This document shows, one piece after another, positions 9-63,532 of a stretch of DNA of 64,000 bases (positions are counted from its first letter, which is position 1; the number at the start of each line of letters is the position of its first letter). This DNA is from Betaproteobacteria bacterium (GTDB taxonomy: Bacteria; Pseudomonadota; Gammaproteobacteria; Burkholderiales; Casimicrobiaceae): NCBI GenBank assembly GCA_013298695.1, contig JAAFIS010000003.1, positions 310,001-374,000 of the forward strand, in the 5' to 3' direction. The position numbers were made by a program, and so were the translations under genes. The notes below the pieces were generated by a model. It was not told the origin of the DNA. It did not search any database and saw only the letters and a program-made list of their open reading frames with translations.

Positions 9-25
9 GCCCAATTAAATAGGGC
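9..25. repeat. GCCC...GGGC intergenic hairpin (single copy)
   Basis: Palindrome of 17 nt (GCCCAATTAAATAGGGC), 3' of the leftward binding-protein gene. It belongs to the dispersed hairpin family described at 3733-3820 and differs by one base from the copy at 59369-59385. Its 66-bp partner, if any, would lie outside the window. Confidence 0.6.
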
Positions 26-80
26 AGGTGGCGAATAAGTTCGCGGGTCTATTTCAATGCGAGTAGTTCGCCTCTGAGAC

Positions 81-1109
81 TCACTTTACATTCAACGTTA
101 CAGCCCGTTCCGCTTTGGGCGGAAGGAAACTACGATCAAAAATATCTTCAGCACGTGGCTTATTCGTGAACTGGAACGATTCGCCAATTTGATCAATCGA
201 CTTGGTGAGCCGCTTCATGTCCACGTCGCCAAAACCATTGGCAAGCACCTCCTTGGTTGCGACGTTTTGGTCAATCGCCATTGCGAGCCGCACCGCTTCC
301 CACTGCTCATCCGCGATGGGATTTTTCTTTATAACTAGCTTCACAGCTTCGCGTTGCTTGCTCATTACTTCGATCCACGCGCGCGCCGTTGCTCGGACAA
401 AGCCCTGTACTGCCTTCGGATTCTTCGCCGCAAAATTTGGATTGACCATGATCGCGTTACCGTAGAGATCGAGGCCGTGATTTGAGAGCAACATCACGTT
501 CACACCATCCTGTGGCACACCGCGGCTGCGTAAATTGATGTAACTTGAAAAAGAAAATCCCGTGATCGCGTCGACTTTGCCTTCGGCGAGCATGGGTTCA
601 CGTACCGGGAATCCGACGTTTTCAATTTTTACTTTGCTTACGTCGATCTTGTTTGCTGCGACTAAGCCTTTCCACTGTGCGTACGCGCCGTCGGCTGCGG
701 GTGCACCAAGCGTTTTGCCTTCGAGATCCCTAGGTTTCTTGATGTTGTTTTTAGCTAGCGAAACAATCGAAAAAGGCGGCGCGTTGTAAATCATCAAAAC
801 CGCCTTCACCGGGGCGTTTTCCTTCTTGTCGCGAAAGCGCACCAGCGAATTGATGTCACCAAAACCCAAGTCATAGGTGCCTGATGCAACGCGGTTAATC
901 GCCTCAGTGGAATTCGCGCCGTTATCGATGGTGACGTCGAGTCCCTCTGCTTTGTAATAGCCTTTCTCCAGCGCCCACAAATACGGGGCGGCAGGGCCTT
1001 CAAAACGCCAATCAAGCGTAAATTTCACAGGTGTTTGCGCGAGCGTAAGGGTTGCCGCGGATGCGGCAAGAAGGGTGGTGCTCCAGCGGAACAAGTGTTT
1101 TGCGATCAT
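81..1109 (-). CDS. ABC transporter substrate-binding protein, NMT1/THI5-like
   Basis: Periplasmic solute-binding protein of the NMT1/SsuA superfamily, which binds small sulfur- or nitrogen-containing compounds such as thiamine-pyrimidine-like molecules, sulfonates or nucleobases. The protein has 342 residues. A signal peptide (residues 1 to about 24, ending LTLAQ) is followed by the family opening FTLDWRFEGPAAPYLWALEKG and a GLDVTIDNG segment. The start at 1109 is preferred over an upstream in-frame codon because CCGGAG lies about 8 nt before it and the signal peptide begins there. It is divergent from the ATPase gene at 1298 and presumably supplies that importer. The ligand cannot be read from sequence. 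Confidence 0.88.
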   Translation of the reverse strand: MIAKHLFRWSTTLLAASAATLTLAQTPVKFTLDWRFEGPAAPYLWALEKGYYKAEGLDVTIDNGANSTEAINRVASGTYDLGFGDINSLVRFRDKKENAPVKAVLMIYNAPPFSIVSLAKNNIKKPRDLEGKTLGAPAADGAYAQWKGLVAANKIDVSKVKIENVGFPVREPMLAEGKVDAITGFSFSSYINLRSRGVPQDGVNVMLLSNHGLDLYGNAIMVNPNFAAKNPKAVQGFVRATARAWIEVMSKQREAVKLVIKKNPIADEQWEAVRLAMAIDQNVATKEVLANGFGDVDMKRLTKSIDQIGESFQFTNKPRAEDIFDRSFLPPKAERAVTLNVK

Positions 1110-1297
1110 AGAAATCTCCGGAATTTGCTGTGTTTTAAGGCAAAGCACGTGCCAAGCGCGAGCGGTTTTACCCTCGATTGCGCGCTGTGACCGTTATGAG
1201 CCGTATTGCGACCGATACGCGTCAATTTGGAGGCGCACTAGGTTGCGGGCACGTTTCACGCTCATAGAATCGTGAAAACCAACAAAAGGTCAACAAG

Positions 1298-2086
1298 ATG
1301 CAGCTCGGGGAACCGCTGGTAGCGCTCAACCACGTCAGCATGGTCTACGGATCAGGCGAAACCGCCGTGAAAGCGGTTGACGATCTCACCCTCACTGTGC
1401 GCAAAGGCGAGTTCATCGCCGTCGTAGGCCCGTCCGGTTGCGGCAAAAGCTCGATGATGAAATTGATCAGCGGCTTGATGCCAATTGCCGGTGGCTCGCT
1501 GACGATTGAAGGCAAACCGATTAGCGGGCCGATCAATAAAGTGGGTATGGCGTTTCAAGCGTCCAACTTGCTGCCTTGGCGAACGGCGGTGGATAACGTG
1601 CTGCTGCCGCTTGAAATTGTGCAACCGCACCGCTCGCAGATTCGATCAAAACGCGACGAATATCGCCAAAAAGCGCGCTCACTACTGGAATCGGTGGGCT
1701 TAAAGGGGTTCACCGAGAAGTTTCCCTGGCAACTCTCTGGCGGCATGCAACAGCGCACCAGTATTTGCCGCGCACTAATTCACGAGCCCGAAATACTCAT
1801 GCTTGACGAACCGTTCAGTGCGCTCGACGCGTTCACCCGTGAAGAACTTTGGTGCATCATGCGCGATCTTCATGCACAAAAACAGATCACGGCGATGCTC
1901 GTTACGCACGATTTAAGGGAGGCCGTGTTTTTGTGCGACACCGTTTACGTGATGAGTGATCGCCCGGGCAAGATTGTGAAAGTGCAAAAGGTGGATTTGC
2001 CAAGACCGCGGGACTTGGACGTGACCTATACGCCGCACTTTCAAGAACTCGTGCAAGAGCTTCGCTCCTACATCGGTCGCCACTAG
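1298..2086 (+). CDS. ABC transporter ATP-binding protein (nitrate/sulfonate/taurine type)
   Basis: Cytoplasmic ATPase of an NMT1-type importer, 262 residues. Walker A GPSGCGKS lies at about residues 44-51, the signature LSGGMQQR in the middle, Walker B LMLDEP follows, and a switch histidine sits in VTHDLREAV. The ATG follows AAAGG. It belongs to the TauB/SsuB group, which works with one permease and one binding protein. The permease starts 245 bp downstream, after a tandem-repeat stretch, so the two genes probably share a transcript. Confidence 0.92.
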   Translation: MQLGEPLVALNHVSMVYGSGETAVKAVDDLTLTVRKGEFIAVVGPSGCGKSSMMKLISGLMPIAGGSLTIEGKPISGPINKVGMAFQASNLLPWRTAVDNVLLPLEIVQPHRSQIRSKRDEYRQKARSLLESVGLKGFTEKFPWQLSGGMQQRTSICRALIHEPEILMLDEPFSALDAFTREELWCIMRDLHAQKQITAMLVTHDLREAVFLCDTVYVMSDRPGKIVKVQKVDLPRPRDLDVTYTPHFQELVQELRSYIGRH

Positions 2087-2140
2087 CTGAAAACGCGACA
2101 CATCAAAATGAAAAGTGTTTTCCCTCTCTCACTCACCATC

Positions 2141-2256
2141 GCGAGCTTGCGATCAAAGACCCTCGCAAGCTTGCGATCAAAGACCCTCGCAAGCTTGCGA
2201 TCAAAGACCCTCGCAAGCTTGCGACCCAAGACCCTCGCAAGCTCGCGATCAAAGCG
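2141..2256 (+). repeat. 24-bp tandem repeat, about five copies
   Basis: Head-to-tail copies of a 24-bp unit containing CTTGCGATCAAAGACCCTC, starting at 2141, 2165, 2189 and 2213, with a diverged partial copy from 2237. Copies two and three are identical and the outer ones carry a few changes. The unit contains AAGCTT and TTGCGATC. It lies between the ATPase stop and the permease start. Because 24 is a multiple of three, the reading frame in phase with the permease stays open through it, but the resulting Ser-Gln-Ala-Cys-Asp-type peptide does not resemble a permease N-terminus. Confidence 0.85.
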
Positions 2257-2330
2257 ATCACCTGTCCCAGCGGGCGAAGCGAGATTCGTGTTCGCAAATT
2301 GCGTTTGTGAATTGCGCAGAAATTTCTAGC

Positions 2331-3101
2331 ATGCAAAAGTTCAAAGAAACCATCCTCGCGCCGACTCTCTTCGTGATCGGCTTGATCCTGTTGTGGGAAA
2401 TCATTTGTCGCGCGTTTTCGATTGCGCCGACGATCCTTCCGTCTCCACTCGACATTTGGAAAGCGCTCATTCAATTTTGGACGCCGATTGTCGATAACTC
2501 ATGGCAAACTTTGTTCACCACGCTCGCGGGTTTCGCGCTCGCCATTGTGTTCGGCCTGTTGCTTGGCGTGTTCATCGGTTGGTCGAAAACGATTTACGGC
2601 GCGCTCTATCCGGTGATGATCGGCTTCAATGCCGTGCCCAAAGTTGCCGTCGTGCCAATTCTCATTTTGTGGTTCGGCATCGGCACGGTACCTGCGATTC
2701 TGACCGCGTTTTTGATTTCATTTTTCCCAATTGTGGTGAACGTGGCAACGGGGATCGCAACAACCGAACCCGAACTTCGCGATGTGCTCCGTGCGCTCGG
2801 TGCGAGCAAGCTCGACATCATGCGCAAGGTGGGTATTCCGCGCTCAATGCCGTATTTTTTCGGCTCGCTTAAAGTCGCGATCACACTCGCATTTGTCGGT
2901 TCAGTGGTGAGCGAAACACAAGGGTCTAACGCAGGTCTAGGCAAACTGATGCTCGACGCGCAGGCCGCGTTCAAAGTGGAGCTTGTATTCGCAGCGCTGG
3001 TGGTGCTCGCGGTACTCGGCATCGTGCTCTACGCGATCACGGCGTGGGTAGAAAAGCGCATGACCGGTTGGGCGTTTCGTGGAGAAAATCAAGGTCTTTA
3101 A
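2331..3101 (+). CDS. ABC transporter permease (nitrate/sulfonate/taurine type)
   Basis: Inner-membrane permease with the BPD_transp_1 fold, 256 residues and about six membrane segments. The ATPase-contacting EAA-type loop reads LRALGASKLDIMRKVGIPRS. The open frame extends upstream to a GTG at 2115 through the 24-bp repeats. I chose the ATG at 2331 because the typical hydrophobic N-terminus begins there (KETILAPTLFVIGLILL), although no strong ribosome site precedes it. The stop TAA overlaps the next gene's ATG by one base (TAATG), so the two are translationally coupled. Confidence 0.9.
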   Translation: MQKFKETILAPTLFVIGLILLWEIICRAFSIAPTILPSPLDIWKALIQFWTPIVDNSWQTLFTTLAGFALAIVFGLLLGVFIGWSKTIYGALYPVMIGFNAVPKVAVVPILILWFGIGTVPAILTAFLISFFPIVVNVATGIATTEPELRDVLRALGASKLDIMRKVGIPRSMPYFFGSLKVAITLAFVGSVVSETQGSNAGLGKLMLDAQAAFKVELVFAALVVLAVLGIVLYAITAWVEKRMTGWAFRGENQGL

Positions 3102-3682
3102 TGCGAGTTCTGGTCATCCGCGCTCACCCGCTCGATGAGAGCTTCAACCATGCCGTCTTGCAGGCGACGTTGCGTGGACTGAAAAAAGCCGGGCACGAAA
3201 CAACGCTCATTGATCTCAACAAAGACGATTTCGATCCAAGACTCAAAGCTGAAGAACGCCGGACGTATCACGATCACGCATTCGTTCCTGAGGATCTGAA
3301 GCGTTATGTCGAACTGATTCGCTCACACGACGCGATGGTTTACGTGTTTCCAACGTGGTGTTTCGGCGTGCCCGCGATTCTCAAAGGTTTTTTTGATCGC
3401 GTATTTCGTCCCGGCGTCGCTTTTCACATTGATGGCCCGGTGGTTACGCCGTTGTTCACGCACATCACAAAAATCGCAGGTGTTTCCACCTACGGACGCG
3501 CTCGATGGATGGCGATTGGCATGGGCGATCCGCCGCGCACACAGATCGTGAAATACGTGAAATGGTTCTGCGCAAAAGGCTGCAAAACCGATTACATCGC
3601 CCACTACCAAATGAACGCAAGCACCGATGCGTCACGCGCGAAATTCCTCACAAAAGTAGAAGCGCGCATGGCTTCGTTTTAG
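3101..3682 (+). CDS. NAD(P)H dehydrogenase (quinone)-like flavoprotein
   Basis: Flavodoxin-fold oxidoreductase of the NQO1/MdaB/KefF group, 193 residues. The opening MRVLVIRAHPLDESFNH is the family's nucleotide-loop signature (AHP-x-SFN). A central FPTWCFGVPAILKGFFDRVF matches the conserved FP-WW--PA-LKGWFDRV block. These enzymes move two electrons from NAD(P)H through FAD or FMN to quinones or similar aromatics. It overlaps the permease stop by one base and so belongs to the transporter operon, which suggests that it acts on the imported compound. The substrate is unknown. Confidence 0.8.
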   Translation: MRVLVIRAHPLDESFNHAVLQATLRGLKKAGHETTLIDLNKDDFDPRLKAEERRTYHDHAFVPEDLKRYVELIRSHDAMVYVFPTWCFGVPAILKGFFDRVFRPGVAFHIDGPVVTPLFTHITKIAGVSTYGRARWMAIGMGDPPRTQIVKYVKWFCAKGCKTDYIAHYQMNASTDASRAKFLTKVEARMASF

Positions 3683-3732
3683 TCGTTAATCATGCGGGGT
3701 CGCCGCGATAGGTTTTAAAAAAACTTATAAAT

Positions 3733-3820
3733 GCCCAATATTATTGGGCGAGTAAAGCATAAAGACACTATTACGATTTAGATATGTATACGGCGTATCG
3801 CCCAGTATATAAGGCGATAC
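3733..3820. repeat. Paired GCCC...GGGC hairpin element
   Basis: Two palindromes lie downstream of the quinone reductase gene. The first, at 3733-3749, is GCCCAATA-T-TATTGGGC with perfect 8-bp arms. The second, at 3795-3820, has arms GTATCGCC and GGCGATAC around an AT-rich loop. Centres are 66.5 bp apart. The intervening 45 bases are AT-rich. The gap between genes (3683-3964) holds nothing else recognisable. Confidence 0.75.
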
Positions 3821-3964
3821 AGCGATAAAGCGGTAATACGGCACCTCAGGTACTATCTTTTGATACCGACCGAAAAAGCGTTGTGAAACTCTCAGACCGT
3901 GACAAGATTGCGGCGTCAAGCGGTCGTTGCACTCATCGTGTGACGCCGAACAGGGGGATACACA

Positions 3965-6895: not shown

Positions 6896-6909
6896 AACAG
6901 GGATTCGTT

Positions 6910-8325: not shown

Positions 8326-8354
8326 AAAAATCGTTAGCTCGGCAAAGCAGAGCG

Positions 8355-8420
8355 TTCCCACCCGAGCTTTGCGTCCTAGCGAAGCGACGTCCTATCGCAG
8401 CGACGTCCTCTCGTCTTTGC
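8355..8420. repeat. AGCGAAGCGACGTCCTA-type intergenic repeat
   Basis: The gap between the convergent DUF3999 and FAD-oxidase genes contains repeated blocks of the type CCTAGCGAAGCGACGTCC, then CTATCGCAGCGACGTCC. The same wording recurs at 13191-13231. This looks like a small dispersed repeat. An open frame across it (8318-8518) has no coding features. Confidence 0.5.
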
Positions 8421-8434
8421 GCGGAGTGCGCGCA

Positions 8435-9850
8435 TCAAAACTTCGGCAAGGTGCTCACATTCACTTTGCCCGCTTTCACATCCGCCGCAATCTGATCGCG
8501 AATGTCCCAACCGCGTAGCTTGCCGGGATTGATAAGCCCTTGTGGATCGAGTCGCAGTTTCGTCATCACGATGTCGGGATTCACTTGACCTTGCTTGCCA
8601 TCTTCCACGTGATAGACGTGAGGGTTCGCGATGTACACGCCGTTATCGCGATGCAATTGCATAATTTCGTTTAACCGCGCGGCGTTCGTATAGCGAACAA
8701 TTTGCAAGCCGCTAAACGTCATTTGGCCTTCTTTGAGGCGAATAAATTCGAGATGCAACAGGCATTCATCGCCGAGTAATTGCTTCATCTTGAGCGCGTG
8801 TTCGACATGCTGCCCCGCAGGGAAGCCGCTTTGAATGTAAGTGATCGTCTTGTCGACTTTGAGCGCGTGCAGCGTGGTGTGATTCCACGTGTATTCGAGA
8901 ATTGTTTTGCCTTTTTTGACTTGCTCAATGTGCGGCTCGTCGTAAGTGATTTCAGCACCATGCTTTGTCGCCCATTCTTTCAGGGCTTCACCACCGTTTT
9001 CTGCATAAATCACGAATAACGCAGACTTACCGCTTGCCCAACGATCATGGAACGTTGGCAAGAAAGGTTGAATGCCATCCTCGAAAAACGACACGGATTT
9101 CTTCGCAACACCCGGGCCATTCGCAATTTCATCGCCCAAGCGCAGCATGCGCTCGATGCCATCGCCAACGATCACGCATTCGCGCCACGCATGCACGGGT
9201 GCGAGCGCGATTTCCATTTCGAGCACGACGCCGCTAGTGCCGTACACATGATGCAACAGCAGTGCTTCGGGCGCACGCAGTTCGATGAGCTGGGGTTCAC
9301 GCTCAATGGTGATTGCCTTCACGCCGAGCACATTGCCAGTGCTCGCGAGTGGTCCGTAATTGATCGAACCAATACCGCCGAAGCCGCCGCCGTATAAACC
9401 GCCCACCGTCGCGATGCGAAAGGTGGACGGCATGCAGCGCAATTCCCATCCTGCGGGTTGCGTCGCTTTATCAATGTCGAGCAAACGCATGCCCGCTTGC
9501 ACGCGCGCGACACCGCCTTTATGCCACACGAGCTGGTTGTACTGCGACAAATCGATGATGACGCCGCCGAAAAGCGGCGTGCATTGCCCGTAGTTGCCGG
9601 AGCCTGCGCCGCGCGGCGTGATCGGCACGCTGTGTTTCGCACAAGCCGCAACGATACGAACGATCTCGTCTTCCGTTTTCGGGCGAACGACGATGTCAGC
9701 GCGATACGGCTCCAATTGTTCGGTGAGCACCGGAGAGAACCACGAAAAATCGCGCGACAGACGCGTGACTTGCGATTCGTCTTCGATGAGGTGAACGCCG
9801 TCGAGTTCAGTGCGGAGAGCGGAGAGTTGTTGGGCGGTCGGTTTATTCAT
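8435..9850 (-). CDS. FAD-binding oxidoreductase (GlcD-like, PCMH fold)
   Basis: FAD-linked oxidase or dehydrogenase of the glycolate oxidase GlcD / D-lactate dehydrogenase superfamily, 471 residues. The N-terminal PCMH-type FAD domain shows the binding loop TPRGAGSGNYGQCTPLFGG and the second loop ATVGGLYGGGFGGIGSINYG. The C-terminus carries LRLDPQGLINPGKLRGW, the family's closing motif (DP-GL-NPGK). The ATG at 9850 is taken; a GTG two codons upstream is possible. It lies downstream of the aminohydrolase in the same direction, so it probably oxidises a step of the same catabolic route. The actual substrate is unknown. Confidence 0.85.
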   Translation of the reverse strand: MNKPTAQQLSALRTELDGVHLIEDESQVTRLSRDFSWFSPVLTEQLEPYRADIVVRPKTEDEIVRIVAACAKHSVPITPRGAGSGNYGQCTPLFGGVIIDLSQYNQLVWHKGGVARVQAGMRLLDIDKATQPAGWELRCMPSTFRIATVGGLYGGGFGGIGSINYGPLASTGNVLGVKAITIEREPQLIELRAPEALLLHHVYGTSGVVLEMEIALAPVHAWRECVIVGDGIERMLRLGDEIANGPGVAKKSVSFFEDGIQPFLPTFHDRWASGKSALFVIYAENGGEALKEWATKHGAEITYDEPHIEQVKKGKTILEYTWNHTTLHALKVDKTITYIQSGFPAGQHVEHALKMKQLLGDECLLHLEFIRLKEGQMTFSGLQIVRYTNAARLNEIMQLHRDNGVYIANPHVYHVEDGKQGQVNPDIVMTKLRLDPQGLINPGKLRGWDIRDQIAADVKAGKVNVSTLPKF

Positions 9851-9862
9851 TGGCACACGTAG

Positions 9863-14270: not shown

Positions 14271-14521
14271 AGTGAATCCTTGTGAATCAAAACTAGGGAT
14301 AACCAAACGATACAAAGCAGCAATCGCCATGCCAGGAGACGCACAAAAGCGCTCGCGCCGGGCGTTAACCATGGAGATTATCGTTGTCGCCACGTCGGTT
14401 GCAACACAAGGTTCCGCAGATTTTCGTTAACGTTTGAGCGCTACAGCTATCAACCTTTTACGCTGCTTAAATACGGCTATGCGCCAATCAATCAATTAAA
14501 AGACTAAAGCTAGAAAACTCA

Positions 14522-15497: not shown

Positions 15498-15602
15498 ACG
15501 TGTAAAAAACTCAACATAGCGCCTACTTAAATGGGCTTAGTTGAGTGTTACACGTGTTATCGAGAAATAACAAAAAACACTTCATCGCCCGTAAAAATAG
15601 GC
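15498..15602. repeat. Paired GCCC...GGGC hairpin element
   Basis: The first hairpin core, GCCTACTTAAATGGGC (15521-15536), is enclosed by outer arms CTCAAC / GTTGAG and further by AACGTGTAA / TTACACGT, giving a long stem. The second, GCCCGTAAAAATAGGC, spans 15587-15602. Centres are 66 bp apart. It lies beyond the dsbA terminator, in the gap before the BtuF-like gene. Confidence 0.7.
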
Positions 15603-15625
15603 ACAGTTAGCACATAGCCAGAAAT

Positions 15626-15653
15626 AAAAAAAGCCGCACGCGGCGGCTTTTTT
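15626..15653 (-). terminator. Rho-independent terminator after dsbA
   Basis: GC-rich stem AGCCGC-(CACG or ACG loop)-GCGGCT flanked by A6 on one side and T6 on the other, so it can work in both directions. It begins 13 bp beyond the dsbA stop and closes the argS - SPOR - dsbA unit. Confidence 0.88.
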
Positions 15654-15665
15654 CATATTAACCAC

Positions 15666-26492: not shown

Positions 26493-26912
26493 ATGCGGCT
26501 GGTGATCGATACCAATGTACTCGTCTCCGCGTTGGTCTTCAAAGATTCTCGGCATCTCTTGCTTCGCGAGGCTTGGACAGCAAAACGCGTCACTCCGCTC
26601 ATGTCGATGGCCACCTATCGCGAATTGAAGCGCGTGCTTTGCTATCCCATGTTTGCGTTAGGTGATGACGTGATTCAATCCGCGATCGAACGTGTCGGAC
26701 CATTCATCGAATGGGTGGAGATTGACCTAGAGCGCGTTTCAACACTACCGAAATGCAGCGACCGCGATGACCAAAAATTTTTGGAAGTGGCCGCTTGTGG
26801 AGACGCCGACGCGCTCGTGACCTACGACAAGGCGCTGCTAAAGCTCAACCGTAAACAACTTCGCTTCATCATCGCAAAGCCAGAGAATTTAATAGCGTCT
26901 TTCTTTGCTTAA
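26493..26912 (+). CDS. PIN-domain protein, VapC-like putative toxin
   Basis: 139-residue PIN nuclease of the COG1569 type. The conserved acidic residues are in LVIDTNVLVSALVF (first Asp), the Glu of YRELKRVL, and DRDDQKFLEVAACGDADALVTYD (further Asp residues). Such proteins are usually RNase toxins neutralised by a small antitoxin. No antitoxin-sized gene is adjacent: upstream is the dehydrogenase (38 bp away) and downstream is a hairpin and a convergent gene. An in-frame ATG at 26439 inside the dehydrogenase is possible, but 26493 matches the family start. Confidence 0.8.
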   Translation: MRLVIDTNVLVSALVFKDSRHLLLREAWTAKRVTPLMSMATYRELKRVLCYPMFALGDDVIQSAIERVGPFIEWVEIDLERVSTLPKCSDRDDQKFLEVAACGDADALVTYDKALLKLNRKQLRFIIAKPENLIASFFA

Positions 26913-26928
26913 GCCCAATTGGATTGGG
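26913..26928. repeat. GCCC...GGG intergenic hairpin (single copy)
   Basis: GCCCAATTGGATTGGG directly after the PIN-gene stop. It is enclosed by CTTTG / CAAAG, which lengthens the stem. It is a member of the dispersed family. The expected partner about 66 bp away (near 26986) keeps only a CCCC half and has no matching right arm. It lies between convergent genes. Confidence 0.6.
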
Positions 26929-27015
26929 ACAAAGCGTTAATTTAACGTATTCTCAATAAGTCTACGAAAGACATGCTCACCCCACATATATCGACGTCGC
27001 AGGGGATTTACTGAG

Positions 27016-28170
27016 TCAAAGCCGATAGCATTCGTCGACTGCTGAAAATGAGTCAAGCAGGCTCGCGGCGCTTTCATTGCCAACAATCAGCACCTTAAAA
27101 AGCTCACCCATCTCCGTCGGTGAGATCAGCTTTTGCAAGGCCCCCGTCGCTTCGAGACGTTCAGAATCGTTCGTAAATGATGCCTGCTCAAACGTACTCA
27201 AGATCCCAGAAGCGAGCAAAAACTTCGCTTGAGTCGTGTAACAAATCACCTGTGCGCCAGCGTCTACCGCAGCCTCAGCAATTGCGGTGAAATCAACGTG
27301 TGCGGTAATGTCTTGCAGACCGGGAAGCATCAGCGCGTCGCTGTGAACATGATGTTTGTAGTGACACATCAGCGTGCCGGAAGCACGATCCGGTATGTAA
27401 AACTCGCGGCGAGGAAATCCATAATCGATGAAGCACAGCGCAGACGGTGCATCGGGTTCAAGTTTCTCCGCGAGCGTTCGGGTCAGCGCCTCGGCTTCGA
27501 GGTTGATCTCGCTAACGTAGCCCTCAAGCGGCGGGATTCTTGTTTTCGCAGCATCAAACAGCGCGCCTTGAAACAACGGAAGCCAGCGCAGCGAAAATCG
27601 GAAACCGTCGCAGGCAACCATTGCTCGCTCATAGGCCGAGTTTTGGAAGCGAACTATTTCGCACGGAACGGCGTCGAGCACTTCGTTAGCAACTACGAGC
27701 CCGGAAATCTGCTCTGGCAGCTGATTGATCCATGTAATCGGCAATCCATCGAGTGCCGTGCGCTGGCGATCACGCAAATCATCACTGAGATCGAGAATCT
27801 GGTAGGTTGCGTTTGGCAGCTCCGCGAGCATCGCTTTTGCGAGTGCGCCGCTGCCCGCGCCCAGTTCAAGCACGCTCTTCGCGGCGAGAGCGTGGAGCGC
27901 TTTAGCAATCGATGCGCCAAATAGTGGCGACATTTCCGGAGCGGTTGTAAAGTCTCCGGTGCGGCCGAGTTTCGTGGAGCCCGCCACGTAGTAGCCGAGC
28001 GAGGGTTCGTACAAGCACGCGCGCATAAAATCGGAAAACGAAATGCAAGCATTCGCACTCGCCTGGATGCGAGCTGCAATGGTCTGCGCAAGTCGCTCGC
28101 CATGCATTACCGATGTCGCATCAGGCAGCGGCAGCCCTCTATCGGCGACCTGAAACAAAGAACTCCACAT
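27016..28170 (-). CDS. MidA/NDUFAF7-family SAM-dependent methyltransferase
   Basis: 384-residue protein of the DUF185 family, whose mitochondrial member methylates an arginine of complex I. Visible are FMRACLYEPSLGYYVAGSTK, GRTGDFTTAPEMSPLFG, the SAM motif VLELGAGSGALAKAML and ANEVLDAVPCEIV. The bacterial substrate is not established. The ATG at 28170 shares bases with the ATG of the divergent gene at 28169. An internal ATG at 28107 would remove the overlap, but residues 13-21 (GLPLPDATS) look like the usual family N-terminus. Confidence 0.85.
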   Translation of the reverse strand: MWSSLFQVADRGLPLPDATSVMHGERLAQTIAARIQASANACISFSDFMRACLYEPSLGYYVAGSTKLGRTGDFTTAPEMSPLFGASIAKALHALAAKSVLELGAGSGALAKAMLAELPNATYQILDLSDDLRDRQRTALDGLPITWINQLPEQISGLVVANEVLDAVPCEIVRFQNSAYERAMVACDGFRFSLRWLPLFQGALFDAAKTRIPPLEGYVSEINLEAEALTRTLAEKLEPDAPSALCFIDYGFPRREFYIPDRASGTLMCHYKHHVHSDALMLPGLQDITAHVDFTAIAEAAVDAGAQVICYTTQAKFLLASGILSTFEQASFTNDSERLEATGALQKLISPTEMGELFKVLIVGNESAASLLDSFSAVDECYRL

Positions 28171-32981: not shown

Positions 32982-34313
32982 ATGTCTTCCCTGATGACCC
33001 CCAAAGAAATTGTTCACGAGTTGGATCGCCACATTGTGGGGCAGGCGGCGGCGAAGAAGGCGGTCGCAATTGCGCTACGTAACCGTTGGCGGCGACAACA
33101 AGTCGCCGAGCCGCTTCGAAATGAGATCACCCCAAAGAACATTTTGATGATCGGTCCGACCGGTGTTGGTAAGACCGAAATCGCGCGCCGTTTAGCAAAG
33201 CTTGCGAATGCACCATTCGTGAAAGTGGAAGCGACTAAATTTACCGAGGTAGGCTACGTCGGGCGCGATGTCGACACCATCATTCGCGATCTGGTGGAAG
33301 TGTCGATTAAACAAACGCGAGAGCAAGCGACAAAGGCGGTACGTGATCGTGCGTTAGATGCGGCTGAAGATCGCGTGCTCGATGCACTGCTGCCGCCGCC
33401 GCAAGCCGTCAACTTTGATGACTTAAAGCCAACCGATAGCTCAACCCGCCAAAAGTTTCGCAAGATGTTGCGCGAGGGCCAGCTTGACGACAAGGAAATC
33501 GAGATCGAAGTGGCGCAAGCCGCAGCGCAGATGGAAGTCATGGCACCGCCAGGCATGGAGGAATTAACGCAGCAGATTCAAGGCATGTTCTCGAACCTGC
33601 AACAGGGGCGCAAGAAACTCAAGAAGATGCGCGTAGATGAAGCGCTGAAACTATGTCAGGACGAAGAGGCCGCGAAGCTTGTGAACGAGGAGGAGTTGCG
33701 CGCAAAAGCGCTTGAAAATGCCGAGCAAAACGGCATCGTGTTTCTCGATGAAATTGACAAAATCGCAGCGCGCCAAGAAACAAGCGGCGCGGACGTGTCG
33801 CGACAAGGCGTACAGCGGGACTTGCTGCCGTTGGTTGAGGGCACCACGGTGAACACGAAATACGGCGCGATCAAAACCGATCATGTGCTGTTCATCGCAA
33901 GCGGCGCGTTTCATCTCTCGAAACCCAGCGATTTGATTCCAGAATTGCAAGGTCGGTTTCCAATACGTGTTGAACTATCAGCGCTGACCGTCAATGATTT
34001 TGAACGCATTCTCACGGCAACTGATGCGAGCTTGACTCAGCAATACGCCGCACTACTCCAAACTGAGCAAGTCACACTAGACTTCAAACCAGACGCTATC
34101 ACGCGACTCGCAGAAATCGCATTTACGGTAAACGAACGCCAAGAAAACATTGGCGCGCGTCGCCTACATACGGTGATGGAACGGTTGATTGAAGATGTGA
34201 GTTTCGAGGCCGACTCTCTTACCGGTTCCGTGATTGATATCGATGCAACGTTTGTTGATAAAAAACTTGCGAGCATTGCGCAGGACGAGAATCTGTCGCA
34301 ATTCATTCTCTAG
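32982..34313 (+). CDS. hslU: HslU, ATPase subunit of the HslUV protease
   Basis: 443-residue AAA+ unfoldase. Walker A GPTGVGKT is at residues 58-65, the pore loop lies in [12 protein letters not shown], the intermediate domain spans about residues 110-240, Walker B is [10 protein letters not shown], and the C-terminal tail LSQFIL docks into HslV. Length and motifs are complete. The peptidase gene hslV, normally directly upstream, is absent; the preceding gene is a phosphoesterase. Start at 32982, with a second in-frame ATG four codons later. Confidence 0.95.
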
Positions 34314-34337
34314 TTTGATTCCAAATAAGTCGAGTTA

Positions 34338-34421
34338 GCCCCGTTTTATATGGGCGATCGCGAAATAAATTTATATTCTTGATTATTAAACATAACCACC
34401 TCCAGGCCCAATGCAATGGGA
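34338..34421. repeat. Paired GCCC...GGGC hairpin element
   Basis: The first hairpin, GCCCCGTTTTATATGGGC, spans 34338-34355; the second, GCCCAATGCAATGGG, spans 34406-34420. Centres are 66.5 bp apart, with an AT-rich spacer. It lies 24 bp after the hslU stop. The rest of the 226-bp gap to the MFS gene shows nothing recognisable. Confidence 0.72.
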
Positions 34422-34539
34422 CTACAGGCGCTTTAGTTATTGCTGCGTTGAATCAGCGAATAACCCATAAATCGGCTTCGGATCTTTCGGTCAAATCTTC
34501 TGCGCCGAGCGTGTTCGCGTGGGCGGCCGGTTCAAGCTC

Positions 34540-39011: not shown

Positions 39012-39040
39012 TCGATGTCTTATCGGAAATATCCGTATAG

Positions 39041-39131
39041 ACCCAAATCTAGTGGGCACGCGTGTTATTTACTAAAATAACCGGTGCGAGGTATAAAAAC
39101 GCTTACCGCCCAGTTTATTCGGGCGGTAAGC
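39041..39131. repeat. Paired GCCC...GGGC hairpin element (best stem)
   Basis: The first hairpin, 39041-39057 (ACCC...GGGC), is imperfect. The second, 39101-39131, has perfect 11-bp arms GCTTACCGCCC and GGGCGGTAAGC around a 9-nt AT-rich loop. Centres are 67 bp apart. It fills the gap between two convergent genes, so it may act as a bidirectional 3'-end element. Confidence 0.78.
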
Positions 39132-39194
39132 ATTAGTGCCACTTAGGTTTGTGCGGCACGCGTGAACTATGATCGCGTCCACTCTCGTAAGTGG

Positions 39195-41890: not shown

Positions 41891-41937
41891 TCTCGAGGCT
41901 TCGGTGCTGCGCTGACGTCGTTTCAGCGATGGTCTTT

Positions 41938-41967
41938 GTTGCCCAGTACCCTTTCCAATTGGGCAAC
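41938..41967. repeat. GCCC...GGGC intergenic hairpin (long-loop copy)
   Basis: Arms GTTGCCCA and TGGGCAAC (8 bp, perfect) around a 14-nt loop, between the convergent miaB and GST genes. No good second hairpin is present at the usual 66-bp distance; a weak GCCCC...GAGC lies at 42015-42032. Confidence 0.62.
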
Positions 41968-42052
41968 TACGTGTTTTTACTCAAGAACTGACTTGAACGT
42001 TTATCGTGCGTGTGCCCCAAACTAATAGAGCGGATCACGCTGTAGCAGATGT

Positions 42053-52304: not shown

Positions 52305-52482
52305 GTTTGGCGTGGAGTGCCGTTCGCTCTAGATGTGAGCCTTGTCGCAGAGTTGCGACAAGCTTTGTTGTATCCGTACGCAACAGGTGTTGCCACTGAT
52401 TCTCGCTCGTTGAGAAATCATGGTTCGCGGCAAAATAGGTATTCAGTAAACCCATACCGCCGCACTTTCCTTCATCACTTTC

Positions 52483-54231: not shown

Positions 54232-54245
54232 AGCCAATTCAAAAC

Positions 54246-55277: not shown

Positions 55278-55329
55278 TTGAGTTACCTGCGGTATTGGAC
55301 GAATGACAAGTGATGAATGACGACCGAAG

Positions 55330-58402: not shown

Positions 58403-58420
58403 ACATGTTCAAGGTACGGT

Positions 58421-58448
58421 GAGCGGCGATCGGCGATCGCCGTAGCTC
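58421..58448 (-). promoter_or_regulatory. Hairpin just upstream of trpE, candidate part of attenuator
   Basis: Stem CGGCGATC-(GCC)-GATCGCCG, extended by GAG/CTC, ends 19 bp before the trpE start on the transcribed strand. No T-run follows, so it is not a classical terminator. It could block the ribosome site or be part of an alternative fold. Upstream in the leader, two TGCCAC copies can pair with the GTGGCA in the Trp codon region of trpL, giving candidate competing structures. Confidence 0.5.
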
Positions 58449-58517
58449 AGGGGTTTGAAGAAACTCGTTTCGGTGTCTGTGGCACGCGTTTGTGGCACGC
58501 GGCAGGCGCAAATAGAT

Positions 58518-58574
58518 CTAGATGGCTTGACGCCACCAACCTTTTTGCCACCAAGAACCGTTGAGTTTGAACAT
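58518..58574 (-). CDS. trpL: trp operon leader peptide (attenuator)
   Basis: Open frame of 18 codons: MFKLNGSWWQKGWWRQAI, then TAG. It contains four tryptophans as two tandem pairs (TGG TGG twice) and lies 115 bp upstream of trpE on the same strand, the defining arrangement of a transcription-attenuation leader. Ribosome stalling at the TGG pairs when charged tRNA-Trp is scarce would change downstream RNA folding. The ribosome site is weak (AAAGAC). It starts 29 bp after the gph stop, so either a promoter lies within gph or the operon reads through from rpe - gph. It is shorter than typical gene-call limits. Confidence 0.85.
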   Translation of the reverse strand: MFKLNGSWWQKGWWRQAI

Positions 58575-58603
58575 GAAGTCTTTTGTGTTTCGCGAGAGCG
58601 CTG

Positions 58604-59278
58604 CTATGTGAGCAACGGCGGAATATCGGTAAATGTACTCACAATCGCGTTAGGACGCAAATCAGTAAGCGCCTCGCCCTCGCTATATCCGTAGTCCAGT
58701 AACACCACCGGCGAGCCCGCCGCTTGTGCGCTGCGGCTGTCGTTGCCGGAGTCGCCGAGCATCAACATTTCTTTGGGGTGCACGCCATGTTTCCCCGCTG
58801 ACCAATAAATCATCGCCGGGTGCGGTTTATTGTGCTCAAGCGTTTCACCACAGACGACGTGATGAAAATACTTCGCGAGACCAAAATGTTCGAGCAATGT
58901 GTGGGTATAGCTCGTCCATTTGTTGGTCACCACTGACATCGTGAAACCGCGCGCCTTGAACGCCTCAAGCCCGTCGATCACGCCGGGATAAAGGGTTGTT
59001 TCATCGGCGATGTGCTCAGCGTAATGGCGACGATAGCGCGCCATCGCGTCGGCCTTTTCTTGATCCGTCGGTTCACGCCCCAACACAACGCGTAGCGATT
59101 TACGCATGTGTTCACCAAGTCCGCCGCCGACAAAACTTTTTACCAAGTGAAGATCGAGCGTGTGATGCCCGAGTTCTGCAAGCACGCGATTGACCGCGCC
59201 GGCAAGATCGGGAATGGTGTCGAGCAGCGTGCCGTCAAGATCAATTGCCACTGCGCGGATATTGGAAATGTGAGTCAT
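58604..59278 (-). CDS. gph: Phosphoglycolate phosphatase
   Basis: HAD-superfamily phosphatase that clears 2-phosphoglycolate. 224 residues. Motif I IDLDGTLLDT, motif II SVVTNKW, the conserved Lys in HNKPHPAMIYW, and motif III MLGDSGNDSRSAQAAG are all present. The order rpe - gph - trpE is a usual betaproteobacterial arrangement. Separated from rpe by a paired hairpin element. Confidence 0.93.
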   Translation of the reverse strand: MTHISNIRAVAIDLDGTLLDTIPDLAGAVNRVLAELGHHTLDLHLVKSFVGGGLGEHMRKSLRVVLGREPTDQEKADAMARYRRHYAEHIADETTLYPGVIDGLEAFKARGFTMSVVTNKWTSYTHTLLEHFGLAKYFHHVVCGETLEHNKPHPAMIYWSAGKHGVHPKEMLMLGDSGNDSRSAQAAGSPVVLLDYGYSEGEALTDLRPNAIVSTFTDIPPLLT

Positions 59279-59300
59279 TAAATTTAACTTCGTGCCTATT

Positions 59301-59400
59301 CCCCCGTTCCGTTTGGGCGACCGGCGTTATTATCTTAATTATCGAATACTAGAATATATTACGTAGCAGCCCAATTAAATTGGGCGTGAACATATAAAGC
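59301..59400. repeat. Paired GCCC...GGGC hairpin element with ATAAAGC tail
   Basis: The first hairpin, 59301-59318, is weak (CCCCC...GGGC). The second, GCCCAATTAAATTGGGC at 59369-59385, is nearly perfect and is followed by GTGAACATATAAAGC. Centres are 67.5 bp apart. It lies between gph and the end of rpe, so it is 3' of rpe. Confidence 0.74.
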
Positions 59401-59406
59401 GGAATG

Positions 59407-60090
59407 CTATATCGAGGCTAGCGAAACTCGCATTTGGCTGATCGCTGCGGCGTAATCTTTCGCGCCATAAATCGCCGATCCGGCAACAAACGTATCCGCG
59501 CCTGCCGCTGCGACTTTCGCGATGTTGTCGGCTTTGATGCCGCCATCGACTTCGAGCAAAATTTTTCTACCCGTTCGTTGTTCCGCTGCATCGATACGCC
59601 TACGAACCTCAACTATTTTTGGCAACACGCCTTCAATGAATTTCTGCCCACCAAAACCCGGGTTCACGCTCATGAGCAAAATCAAATCGAGTTTGTCGAT
59701 GGTGTAATCGAGATACGACAGCGGCGTTGCCGGATTGAACACGAGCCCTGGTTTGCAACCTGAGTCACGAATGAGTCCGATCGTTCGATCAATATGGTCA
59801 CTCGCCTCAGGATGAAAACTGATGATGTTTGCGCCCGCTTTCGCAAATTCTGTAGCGACTGCGTCAACGGGTTTCACCATTAAATGAACATCAATGGGCG
59901 TGTCGCCCACATGCGGCTTGATTGCCGCGCACACCATCGGCCCGATCGTTAAGTTCGGCACGTAATGATTGTCCATCACGTCGAAATGAATCAAATCCGC
60001 GCCCGCAGCGATTACTGCACGCACCTCATCCCCCAGTTTTGCGAAGTCCGCCGAAAGAATCGACGGGGCGATTTTGAAATTGCGAGACAA
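59407..60090 (-). CDS. rpe: Ribulose-phosphate 3-epimerase (TTG start)
   Basis: Interconverts ribulose-5-phosphate and xylulose-5-phosphate. 227-residue TIM barrel: [43 protein letters not shown] and [12 protein letters not shown] are diagnostic. No ATG fits. The best start is the TTG at 60090, which has GAGGG 6 nt upstream and gives the normal N-terminus (SRNFKIAPS). A second TTG at 60117 is possible but lacks this site. Divergent from apaG. Confidence 0.92.
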
Positions 60091-60146
60091 TTGAGTTCCC
60101 TCTAACGCAGCGTTCAAGCGCGTAACATGTGTAAGCGAGATCGCCC

Positions 60147-60518
60147 GTGAAATACGGTGTAACTATTGATCCCACGCCATTCTATTTGGCTGAGCAAAGC
60201 GATCCCGATCGCGGGTTATTCACCTTCGCTTATCACATCAATATTGTGAACACGGGTGACGAGACGGTGCAGCTTATTTCACGCCACTGGATCATCACTG
60301 ATGGCAATGGTGAAATTGAAGAAGTTAAAGGCGAAGGCGTTGTCGGTAAACAGCCGATCCTCGCGTCCGGCGAAAGCTTCCAGTACACCAGCGGTACGCA
60401 ATTTAAAACCCCGGTTGGCACGATGCACGGCAGCTACACCTTTACCGCCGCCGATGGCACCTCGTTCGAAGCCCCCATCCCACGATTTACATGCAGCGCA
60501 AAACGTGTGTTGCACTAA
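60147..60518 (+). CDS. apaG: ApaG protein
   Basis: 123-residue single-domain beta-sandwich protein (DUF525). [40 protein letters not shown] and [13 protein letters not shown] cover the fold. The biochemical role is uncertain; the E. coli gene lies beside apaH and is linked to cobalt sensitivity. It starts with GTG after AGCGAGA. Divergent from rpe. Confidence 0.92.
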
Positions 60519-60550
60519 CCGTCGATGTCCCGAGACACGGCTAGCCGCCA

Positions 60551-60727
60551 TTAGCGGTTCATATTGGGTGGATCTTCGCCCTGAACTTTCGCATTACGCC
60601 TAGCTTCTTCCATCTTTGCGCGATCCTTGGCCGATGTACCCTTCATCACCCACCAGATCAAGCCTGCGAACAGCGTACCGGCGACAACTGCTTCAACAAT
60701 AAAAATCCAAAATCCGCTCTCAATCAC
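60551..60727 (-). CDS. Small single-pass membrane protein (GTG start)
   Basis: 58 residues starting at GTG, with an excellent ribosome site (GGGAGGAAC, spacing about 7). Residues 6-28 form one hydrophobic helix (WIFIVEAVVAGTLFAGLIWW), followed by a charged tail (KDRAKMEEARRNAKVQGEDP). No family is recognised. It lies between apaG (convergent, 32 bp) and the enoyl-CoA hydratase (divergent). Its strong translation signal and helix-plus-charged-tail pattern argue that it is real. Confidence 0.68.
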   Translation of the reverse strand: MIESGFWIFIVEAVVAGTLFAGLIWWVMKGTSAKDRAKMEEARRNAKVQGEDPPNMNR

Positions 60728-60810
60728 AGCGCAGTTCCTCCCAACAATTCTTCAATTTTAGGCGCAGCTTTGGTAAGCCCGACGCAGAAACCCGCGCCTA
60801 CAATCGCAGC

Positions 60811-61551
60811 GTGAACTCCGCCTCTCTATTCACTGAAAAACACGGCACAATCACCCGTCTCACGCTCAACCGTGCCGCTAAGGCGAACGCGTTGGATGAC
60901 GCAACGGTTTGCGCATTACAGCAAGCGCTTGATGCAGCGCTGGTCGACGGCACCGAACTGCTGGTGATCGCGGGCGAGGGGAAAAATTTCTGCGCGGGGT
61001 TTGATTTGTCGAATCTTGATGCGGAGAGCGATGCCAGTTTGATCACACGACTCCAGCGCGCGGAAGCGCTGTTGCAGTCGGTTTATTACGCGCCGTTTGC
61101 AACCGTAGCGCTCGTCCAGGGCGGCGCTTACGGCGCGGGCTTTGATCTCGCAATGGCTTGCGATTATCGAATCGCTGCGCCAGGCGCAACGCTGCGAATG
61201 CCGAGCTGGAAAATGGGCATTGCCATTGGCACGCGGCGGCTCGCGTCACGGGTTGGTGCGGACATCGCATTCCAGTGCCTGCGCAGCGCCGCAGTACTGA
61301 ACGTAGGCGACGCGCTCGCCGGCAATTTCCTCACTGAAATCGCGGACAGCGCGGCTTGGCCGCGTCGCGTTGAAGAAATCGCAGGCGATGTTCGTGCGCT
61401 TTCGGCGGGCGCCTATGCACAATTAAAACGAACAGTTTTGACCGACACTCGCGCTGAAGACATGCGTTCACTTACCGAATCGCTCGTGAGCGAACCGCTT
61501 AAGCCGCGCATGCAGCGGTACGCGAATTTACGAAAAGCAGAAACTATGTGA
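60811..61551 (+). CDS. Enoyl-CoA hydratase/isomerase family protein
   Basis: 246-residue crotonase-fold protein starting at GTG. The oxyanion-hole segment GEGKNFCAGFDLSNL and the second hole ALVQGGAYGAGFDLAMACDYR are present. The usual catalytic Glu of hydratases is not obvious in the MPSWKMGIAIGTRRLASRVG stretch, where the second active-site residue normally lies, so the reaction (hydratase, isomerase or hydrolase) is unclear. It has no fatty-acid neighbours. Confidence 0.82.
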   Translation: MNSASLFTEKHGTITRLTLNRAAKANALDDATVCALQQALDAALVDGTELLVIAGEGKNFCAGFDLSNLDAESDASLITRLQRAEALLQSVYYAPFATVALVQGGAYGAGFDLAMACDYRIAAPGATLRMPSWKMGIAIGTRRLASRVGADIAFQCLRSAAVLNVGDALAGNFLTEIADSAAWPRRVEEIAGDVRALSAGAYAQLKRTVLTDTRAEDMRSLTESLVSEPLKPRMQRYANLRKAETM

Positions 61552-61553
61552 AA

Positions 61554-61636
61554 CCACGATTTCATTGGGCGGAGCACTAAGGAAACGTAAAACTCGAAAA
61601 ACTAGTGAACTAGCGCTTAACCCAAAAAATACGGTT
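61554..61636. repeat. Degenerate paired hairpin element
   Basis: The right arm TTGGGC at 61565-61570 has a decayed left arm (CCACGA). The second unit, AACCCAAAAAATACGGTT (61619-61636), keeps AACC/GGTT arms. Centres are 65.5 bp apart, like the intact pairs, just after the hydratase stop. Identification rests mainly on spacing. Confidence 0.42.
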
Positions 61637-61977
61637 GCTCTGGTTTATTGTCACATGCCGAGTCTTGCCCGTACGCAAAATACGACTTCCTAAGCGCGGC
61701 GGCACCGATCGCGCTATGCCGTGACGGGAGCGTTCGGCTTCATCGGGCATTACGTTTCACCAAGCGACGTTGGCCCCGACGTCGTCGAGCCGCTCGAGCA
61801 CGCAAGCGTTGAAAACCGCCAGGGCGCACGCGAATAGCTTGCGGCGACTGCACGCGGCTTTTGGGAAAACATCGATCTTGGCAATATAGCCTGAGCAAAT
61901 TCGCTCCACCGTGCCAGCGGGTGACGGCAACTCGCTTATCAAAAGCGTACACCGTGCGACTCCGTTACGATTGACGC
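61637..61977. other. Gap without recognised gene
   Basis: Frames on both strands (for example a leftward one at 61740-61952, Arg-rich) show no family similarity and no ribosome site. A plus-strand stretch near 61740-61840 stays open for about 32 codons before a TAG but has no start. I see no promoter or RNA structure here. Confidence 0.4.
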
Positions 61978-62718
61978 ATGCCCATTGAATACGCTCGCAG
62001 TTTGACGATGGAAAATCGCTCTCCCCGGAGCGATCGACACCTCGGATTTGGGCTCGCGTTTGTCGCAGGTGCGACCAATGCTGGAGCGTTTCTCGCGGTT
62101 CAGCTCTACACCTCGCACATGACCGGCTTGGTGTCATCGATGGCCGATCACATTGCATTGGGTGAGAGCACGCTGGCGCTCGGAGCGCTAGGTGCGGTGA
62201 CCTCCTTTTTGCTCGGCGCGATGACCTCCGTCGTCATCATCAATTTTGCGAAGCGCCACGAGCTTCGCAGCGCGTTCGCATTGCCGTTGCTTCTAGAGGC
62301 CGTCCTGCTCATCTCGTTTGGGTTCCTCGGAGCGCGATTGGCTCAAATTCAAGGGTTATTTGTTCCGGTCACCGTAATGCTGCTCTGCTTCATCATGGGA
62401 TTGCAGAACGCGGTGGTCACCAAAATTTCTGGTGTGCCCGTGCGAACCACCCACCTGACGGGCGTTGTCACCGATCTTGGTATCGAACTCGGCCGCCTGT
62501 TTTATTGGAATCGAAGCGCGCGAGGCGCGGACAAAAAAGTGGTGGCTGACCGCGAGCGGCTGAGCATTCTGTTTCTGCTTTGTTTGTTTTTCGTGATTGG
62601 CGGTGTTACGGGTGCGCTTGGTTTCAAGCACTTCGGCTACGTCGCGACCGTACCGTTGGCCGCCGTGCTCGTTGCCATGTCGGTGGTTCCAGTTTTTGAT
62701 GACCTGAGAGCCGCGTAA
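61978..62718 (+). CDS. DUF1275 (YoaK) family membrane protein
   Basis: 246 residues with about six membrane helices. LGFGLAFVAGATNAGAFLAV and YTSHMTGLVSSMADHIALGE are the hallmark DUF1275 N-terminal segments, and GLQNAVVTKISGVPVRTTHL marks the second half. Function unknown. The first ATG at 61978 is taken; a second in-frame ATG at 62008 is closer to the usual family start. Confidence 0.85.
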   Translation: MPIEYARSLTMENRSPRSDRHLGFGLAFVAGATNAGAFLAVQLYTSHMTGLVSSMADHIALGESTLALGALGAVTSFLLGAMTSVVIINFAKRHELRSAFALPLLLEAVLLISFGFLGARLAQIQGLFVPVTVMLLCFIMGLQNAVVTKISGVPVRTTHLTGVVTDLGIELGRLFYWNRSARGADKKVVADRERLSILFLLCLFFVIGGVTGALGFKHFGYVATVPLAAVLVAMSVVPVFDDLRAA

Positions 62719-62926
62719 TTCGCCACATCGATCAACGAACTCTGGCTATCTTGAGAGTTATTGGCAGCAACGTCGTCGTCAACACAAGACGGCTCAGCGA
62801 GCGCTCGCGAGATCGAACCACGACCGTCTCGTTTCATGCGCAACCACTTTCATTTGTGGAGTCCGACGCGCAGTACGCTGCCGCCCCCTCACTACAATTT
62901 GTGAGTCAGAAAACTAGGATCAAGAC

Positions 62927-63319
62927 ATGTTCAGTCACATTATGGTGGGCACCAACGACATCGAGCGCGCAAAGCGGTTTTACGATGCCGTACTCGGCGT
63001 ATTAGGCGCAGGCGAACCGCACAAAAATACAGCCGGAACGGGGCATGCTCGGCTCTTCTACCGTCATGATGGCGCAACGTTTTGCATCAGCGAACCGATC
63101 AACGGAGAAGCCGCCACCGTCGCCAACGGCGGCACCATCGGTTTCAAGTGCAGCTCCGCCGAGCAAGTGCAACAGTTTCACGACGTAGCCGTCGCTCATG
63201 GCGGCGTTTCTATCGAAGACGCGCCTGGCCTGCGCGAAGGCAAGATGGGTGCGCTGCATCTTGCCTATGTGCGTGATCCGGATGGCAACAAGCTCTGTGC
63301 GCTGTATCGGCCAAAATAA
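62927..63319 (+). CDS. VOC-family (glyoxalase-like) protein
   Basis: 130-residue vicinal-oxygen-chelate protein with two beta-alpha-beta-beta-beta units. HIMVGTNDIERAKRFYDAVL and HLAYVRDPDGNKLCALYRP are typical N- and C-terminal strands. Potential metal ligands include the His in SHIMVG and the His in GALHLAYV, but the usual Glu ligands are not clear. It could be a lyase, a dioxygenase-like enzyme or a resistance protein. Isolated gene. Confidence 0.85.
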   Translation: MFSHIMVGTNDIERAKRFYDAVLGVLGAGEPHKNTAGTGHARLFYRHDGATFCISEPINGEAATVANGGTIGFKCSSAEQVQQFHDVAVAHGGVSIEDAPGLREGKMGALHLAYVRDPDGNKLCALYRPK

Positions 63320-63440
63320 TTCGAATCACGTTTGAAAACGTCCGATCCTTTTCAGCAGCTAAGCCGTAGTCGTGCTACTTTTCGGCCAACAGTCGCGGCG
63401 TGGGTCGTTTAACTTTTCGATATCAGCTAAAGCGCGAAGC

Positions 63441-63532
63441 GCCCGCGCAATGCGGGCGTTAACGCTTATTCAGTAGATTAGTGTGTGATGACTGAATCGC
63501 GTGTATCGCCCGAATAAATCGGGCAATTACAC
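63441..63532. repeat. Paired GCCC...GGGC hairpin element
   Basis: The first, GCCCGC-GCAAT-GCGGGC, spans 63441-63457. The second, at 63501-63532, has core GCCCGA-ATAAA-TCGGGC and outer GTGTA/TACAC, followed by TTAAAGC. Centres are 67 bp apart. It lies between the convergent VOC gene and the cytochrome c' remnant. Confidence 0.76.

Follow-up and report, generated by a model that had tools for sequence, protein, structure and literature searches.

The window analyzed here is a 64-kb stretch of a Casimicrobiaceae genome (G000:C16:310001-374000; genome G000, 4.08 Mb in 22 contigs; contig C16, 405 kb), in which copies of a 124-bp dyad-symmetric DNA element are dispersed, largely in intergenic gaps adjoining gene 3′ ends. 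The organism is probably a betaproteobacterium, its HslU-type protein having as best relative, at 88% identity, a betaproteobacterial MAG from a reactor. The 124-bp element is most readily noticed as pairs of GCCC-N9-GGGC palindromes, which the original prediction had taken for a family of paired hairpins spaced by about 66 bp. Distances between such palindromes in C16 (at most one mismatch) showed a sharp peak at 67 bp with 22 pairs, the next best value having 2, and no distance peak was seen in C16 for the reversed motif; genome-wide, the pattern CCC-N9-GGG-N(52–54)-CCC-N9-GGG occurred at 84 places, against 0 in the control. The dispersed pairs and their excess at a set spacing are thus borne out, with a modal value of 67 rather than 66 bp. 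The feature is true and unusual but was mis-described as paired hairpins: the palindromes are the visible part of the longer, 124-bp element.

The element has the plan CAGCTTT-n-GCCC-n9-GGGC-n-W tract-n-TCGA, followed by its mirror image. Alignment of 81 copies (67-bp spacing, at most two mismatches in 16 positions) gave the consensus YARCTTT-n-TATC-GCCCAATTnAATTGGGC-GATAA-n-W tract-n-TTATCGATAA, the last block lying at the dyad, and then again the mirror image. The ATAAAGC noted earlier behind several palindromes is indeed present, and it is the right end of the element itself (consensus AAAGCTG), mirrored at the left end as CAGCTTT. Common to G000 and two congeners, G002 and G005, are the TCGA centre, the W tract ~13 bp out, the inner GGGC, and ends of the AAAAG(C/T)TG type. 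The information content amounts to 36–70 bits, being higher in G005 (70 bits) than in G000. The consensus drifts between the species, with the geometry kept.

A 124-bp site matrix (matrix v1), trained on 60 copies that do not overlap one another and carry no more than one mismatch, found 59 sites of at least 10 bits in C16 and 0 in reversed C16. Because 14 of the 60 training copies came from C16, the matrix was retrained on the 46 copies from the other contigs (matrix v2), and still gave 61 sites of at least 10 bits in C16, 58 of them reaching at least 15 bits; at the 10-bit threshold it gave none when C16 was reversed or complemented, nor in five simulations of a third-order Markov model. Extrapolation from the contig size, or from the share of C16 in the strongest genome-wide matches (13 of 91 distinct places by hand count, among the matches listed), yields roughly 400–600 sites per genome. 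The number of weak sites depends on the matrix, since that of G002 gave 95 matches of at least 10 bits in C16 (reversed, 1). In the opposite direction, the G000 matrix gave 17 matches of at least 8 bits in G002 (reversed, 0), and a refined matrix gave 73 of at least 15 bits (reversed, 0). In G005, the G000 matrix found 12 matches against 0 in the control, and a G005 matrix found 22 in 320 kb of held-out sequence (reversed, 1; complement, 1).

The sites within the window are listed in the table. Six of the eight paired loci proposed earlier (3733, 15521, 34338, 39041, 59301, and 63441) score 32–80 bits with matrix v2; at about −1 bit, the other two (52223 and 61554) are excluded from the count of sites. 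Three further sites, at 8950, 26893, and 41928 (25–30 bits, matrix v2), had been left unpaired, and the palindrome at position 9 turned out to form the right half of a site that starts before the window. For the weak site at 8950, inside an open reading frame, the sister-species gene carries a site of 31 bits at the corresponding position. A doubtful site at 14440 scores 6 bits.

Table. Copies of the 124-bp element and one adjoining hairpin in the 64-kb window (window positions unless a contig is given).
Feature	Position	Strand	Score	Remarks
Right part of a site (first 79 bases upstream of the window)	1..45; whole, C16:309922-310045	.	71.8 bits	Sister-species site in orthologous gap
Site, tandem intergenic	3713..3836	.	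61 bits	33 bp past predicted gene end; sister-species site in same gap
Weak site inside an open reading frame	8950..9073	.	23–25 bits	FAD-linked-oxidase-like by eye
Site, tandem intergenic	15500..15623	.	32–34 bits	G002 without site, gap there 204 bp shorter
Ordinary terminator-like hairpin with A/T runs	15624..15656	.		Adjoins site 15500..15623, outside the element
Site, convergent intergenic	26893..27016	.	30 bits
Site after HslU-like AAA gene	34319..34442	.	57–60 bits	Gene ends at 34313
Site	39021..39144	.	49–55 bits
Site, convergent intergenic	41928..42051	.	27–31 bits	G002 without site, gap 23 instead of 162 bp
Strong site filling the gap between two predicted genes	59282..59405	.	80–84 bits	6 and 4 bp to gene ends
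Site	63421..63544	.	62–69 bits

The sites lie mostly in tandem and convergent gaps. Divergent gaps hold 3 of 58 sites in G000, 7 of 73 in G002, and 8 of 49 in G005, and make up 26/152, 34/159, and 60/255, respectively, of the gaps of at least 100 bp. By a simple gene caller, 12 of the 58 sites in G000 and 21 of the 73 in G002 fall inside called genes, and all 49 sites called at >30 bits in G005 are intergenic. The in-gene sites L140, L133, C16:83413, and C16:22022 impose peptides of the AQLNWA or INWAM type on unrelated proteins, and the one imposed on an epimerase-type protein is, by eye, close to its YxxxK motif.

Along the chromosome, the sites are spaced fairly evenly. The mean distance is 7.0 kb in G000 (58 sites), 5.5 kb in G002 (73), and 12.1 kb in G005 (49), with coefficients of variation of 0.61, 0.61, and 0.47, respectively, against 0.84–0.87 for random non-divergent gaps (p, 0.0015 for G000 and G002; 0 of 2000 for G005). 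The spacing in G005 was computed leaving out a 105-kb interval (G005:C1:110000-215000; L188–L193) in which no match of at least 10 bits was found. Among 10 of its 79 called genes tested were those for TraD, a TraC-type ATPase, topoisomerase III, and a Tn3 transposase, together with BREX- or DISARM-like defense genes (BREX-3 PglZ-like, DrmD-like, and HerA-like). The interval is an imported island resembling an integrative and conjugative element; the core DNA has sites, whereas the island has none.

The sites are also kept in place between species. In orthologous gaps of at least 90 bp, G002 (median protein identity to G000, 80%) has a site in 10 of 10 gaps that hold one in G000, against 5 of 28 that do not (Fisher p, 6e-6); counted over gaps of any length, the table reads 10, 2, 6, and 68 (p, 1e-7), and the two gaps whose G000 site is lost in G002 are 204 and 139 bp shorter there. 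For the more distant G005, the figures are 4 of 6 against 2 of 17 (table 4, 2, 2, and 15; p, 0.02). In-register identity of orthologous site pairs is hardly above that of mismatched pairs (conserved columns, 0.46 against 0.42; others, 0.31 against 0.28); therefore, the place is kept and the sequence turns over.

The distribution was surveyed with a sequence-only model from the three species over 70 genomes, applying stricter filters and scoring at most 50 candidates per genome. Counting both strands, 22–50 matches per genome were obtained in G000 itself and in 15 of the 16 congeners surveyed. None of the 25 family members from other genera gave a match, and the 28 genomes of the order gave a single weak one (E, 0.002). 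The element is a genus-specific (among the genomes searched), vertically inherited, evenly spaced, symmetric DNA site. The sole congener with no detectable site, G016 (2.6 Mb, 97% complete), offers a natural contrast for finding the putative binding protein. Pattern matches in four inspected genomes of other genera (G023, G024, G056, and G079) were set aside as, by eye, a REPIN-like family, G+C-rich runs, other repeats, and a CRISPR-like array; the last (G079:C3:156-52444), with the repeat GTCCCCTCTTAGAGGGGATTACAAC, varying spacers, and a ~67-bp period, looks like a CRISPR array matching the pattern by accident. A thin search of titles and abstracts of the open-access literature found no description of such a site, in line with the earlier view that it belongs to no obvious known family.

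Within the site, the A/T content has a ~10-bp period locked to the dyad in G000, G002, and G005, with maxima near 4, 13, 23, 31–36, 44, and 53 bp from the dyad (column-permutation p, 0.011, 0.029, and 0.0015; best fitted period, 10.0, 10.0, and 9.75 bp in the three species). Two-fold symmetry, near-fixed length, and this dyad-locked period together suggest wrapping of the DNA on a putative symmetric complex. Judging from these features, the element may be an evenly spaced recognition site in double-stranded DNA that a symmetric protein complex would bind and wrap, the binder most likely being a clade-specific architectural protein; we give this reading an even chance. The complex would contact fixed spots, namely the CAGCTTTT ends, the GGGC ~27 bp from the dyad, the W tract ~13 bp out, and the TCGA at the dyad, with the DNA wrapped around it at each site, so that the sites, spread evenly between transcription units, might each serve as an anchor or a point of topology control. 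A nucleoid-protein site was among the options raised originally, and the evidence points to it.

The other options were a structured two-hairpin RNA element and a mobile repeat. As two hairpins at mRNA 3′ ends, the element could act as a terminator, a stabilizer, or a small RNA, and many sites do lie just past stop codons; hairpins can be drawn in most copies of the own genome, both being intact in 62% of 104 copies. The arms of the hairpins had been said to vary in a compensatory manner, which the alignment does not bear out: a scan of all column pairs over the 81 copies placed no hairpin pair among the top 60, and in the grouped tests complementarity exceeded expectation by 0–5 percentage points (z, −0.1 to 2.8), with out-of-register controls reaching a z of 2.9. 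Moreover, of 49 copies in G005 only 4% retain both hairpins intact, and of 67 copies in G002, where the inner GGGC is one base nearer the dyad, 0% do so at the G000 columns; four congeners (G003, G007, G012, and G014) have 0 strict double palindromes, yet 36–50 matches to the sequence model. Because the covariation is marginal and the element persists in sister species that have mostly lost the hairpins, the RNA hairpin model was rejected. The symmetry leaves the element without an RNA strand of its own; some copies are situated within called genes, and a search against Rfam at gathering thresholds matched no family in the window. By eye, the palindromes are not followed by a T run, which agrees with the earlier statement that they are not simple terminators; two copies (L155:2033-2156 and L114, near 1960) have a separate terminator-like hairpin at the dyad, a point in favor of the RNA reading, and a bidirectional terminator can thus share the centre of the site. 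On balance, we regard that reading as the least probable of all. Scarcely more probable is a REP/REPIN or MITE-like repeat spread by a Y1 transposase (RAYT) or another transposase, in spite of the dispersed, palindromic, mostly intergenic copies of fixed length, often at gene 3′ ends, and of the likeness to REPIN doublets, which have conserved ends and a fixed spacer length. There is no clonal pair among 76 non-overlapping copies (overall identity, at most 65%), and their unconserved columns agree at chance level (mean pairwise identity, 0.303; 0.312 expected from same-strand column composition). The REPIN-like family of G023, by contrast, has near-identical spacers among several of the copies listed; this genome, of another genus of the same family, has doublets of the form CCCCGCG(A/C)AGGCGGGGACCCAG...GTCCCCGCC with similar outer spacing. 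The search for a Y1-type transposase found a single gene (C1:100270-100635), flanked on both sides by a GTAG-type REP (GTAGGGTGGGCAC.../...GTGCCCACC) unrelated to the 124-bp site, and the 4-kb locus holds no site of at least 15 bits; this RAYT-type gene stands beside a transposase-like open reading frame, IS110-type by eye (L156, G000:C1:98500-102500). Three in-gene sites were compared with solved homologues over the stretches covered by the alignment: a HutF-type protein shows two 2-residue gaps (net +4 residues in a 42-residue span), an epimerase-type protein aligns gap-free in the covered part (27 of 42 residues), and the formate dehydrogenase beta subunit has net +1 residue. Such short gaps are not the 41-residue insertion that a jump would leave. 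As the copies have no shared spacer ancestry, only short in-gene gaps, and positions in orthologous gaps, and as the Y1 gene carries a different REP, both the REP/RAYT and the MITE candidates were rejected; the sites seem to have been built in place, not copied around.

Two further explanations were considered. A mosaic of independent sites, consisting of two dimeric transcription-factor operators with unrelated flanking signals, would account for each GCCC-N9-GGGC palindrome, which resembles a dimer operator. It is very improbable in view of the single near-fixed geometry across 124 bp, centre and ends included, a copy number far above that of a typical regulon, and the few sites in divergent, that is, promoter gaps compared with their share of all gaps. 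The main rival, ranked second to the dedicated binder and in our view rather unlikely, is that the sites are strong DNA gyrase sites, in which ~130 bp would be wrapped symmetrically about a 4-bp cleavage window (here TCGA), evolved in this genus to be unusually well matched and to lie evenly spaced between transcription units, supplying supercoiling or anchoring gyrase. According to two papers, the E. coli gyrase motif spans 130 bp, is symmetric about a 4-bp staggered cut, and has arms periodic at 10.75 bp (PMC6379681; PMC12393610), the periodic A/T and G/C arms being explained by wrapping (PMC6379681). The present element agrees with that motif in its size of 124 bp and its dyad on a 4-bp centre, has a ~10-bp period, and has most of its copies in gaps of the tandem and convergent types. 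For phage Mu, the correlation with the A/T profile peaks in register at the annotated cut (17879^17880; r, 0.13–0.23 at offset 0), and at the best offset the cut falls in the top 0.9–4.8% of positions, a weak support; the Mu site is, however, not among the top matches (A/T profile rank, 352–1991 of 36594). The pBR322-type site, which we take to lie at position ~990, gave no in-register peak, and the tet region of pSC101 as a yardstick gave no support. The fitted period of 9.75–10.0 bp differs from 10.75 bp, and the enzyme is universal, yet the site was found in one genus only, with a drifting consensus. The C-terminal repeats of GyrA look ordinary (six, in one 877-aa reading frame); a site is located just downstream of the last of them (G000:C18:241075-241194; repeat end, 241019). 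A dedicated binder is ranked first because of the genus restriction, the high information, and the species-specific consensus with kept geometry; the two readings could coexist.

Several points weigh against the dedicated-binder reading. The binding protein is putative, and blocks of fixed sequence (GGG/CCC and TCGA) account in themselves for part of the fitted A/T period. The geometry is not base-rigid across species, given the shifted inner GGGC of G002. A slight excess of arm complementarity persists: two hairpin sets were matched by just 1 and 2 of 200 shuffles, and in alignment A1 neither the paired cells (68.6%; shuffled mean, 66.0%) nor the covariation score (0.162; shuffled mean, 0.130) was reached by any of 500 shuffles. 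In the controls slid by −1 and +1, 91 and 104 cells changed on both sides, compared with 92 in register, with lower scores (0.100 and 0.101). The genes were called by a simple script, which makes the labels of in-gene and intergenic sites approximate; the site lists of G002 and G005 use matrices refined on the same genome, with reversed and held-out controls clean or nearly so; and the genus restriction leans on the three-congener model and the stricter filters, which a strongly diverged form elsewhere could escape. Finally, operon structure may partly cause the regular spacing, as the random-gap null models operons only in part.

A broader proposal, tentative and on balance doubtful, extends the dedicated-binder reading to a chromatin-like system of the genus's own, in which a dedicated complex would wrap ~124 bp at each of several hundred stations, defined by sequence and evenly spaced between transcription units, and divide the chromosome into units of ~5–12 kb. 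The position of a station would be inherited, and point changes would rebuild the station as the specificity of the protein drifts. Bacterial chromosome domains are ~10 kb in size, with boundaries usually thought to be diffuse and sequence-poor. A sequence-rich dyad site every 5–12 kb, conserved in position and absent from an imported island, would provide readable stations for chromosome organization and, through deletion of single sites, would allow the size of domains and the function of their boundaries to be tested. If the binder is gyrase, the sites would form an extreme natural system of strong gyrase sites; if it is a new protein, it would be a new architectural factor known from one genus.

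Among known systems, matS, parS, and KOPS are scattered chromosomal sites of ~8–16 bp, symmetric or oriented, each read by a dedicated protein, a role for which the binder here is putative; they are tied to macrodomains, the origin, or polarity, whereas the present element is 124 bp long and evenly spaced. Phased nucleosome-positioning sequences likewise show ~10-bp A/T phasing around a dyad, but the element consists of specific-base blocks at set positions, in a bacterium. With BIME-2, REP, and REPINs it shares a dispersed, palindromic, and intergenic nature, often at gene 3′ ends, and it differs from them in that the search turned up no cognate RAYT, that the palindrome shows, by eye, no GTAG foot, and that the copies have no shared spacer ancestry; some BIME-2 bind gyrase (PMC6379681). 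The gyrase motif and the strong gyrase site of phage Mu resemble the element in their ~130-bp length, symmetry about a 4-bp centre, and periodic A/T–G/C arms. The E. coli motif, however, is called degenerate in the excerpted text, which does not mention even spacing (PMC6379681), whereas the element described here is built of base-specific blocks amounting to 36–70 bits and was found in one genus only.

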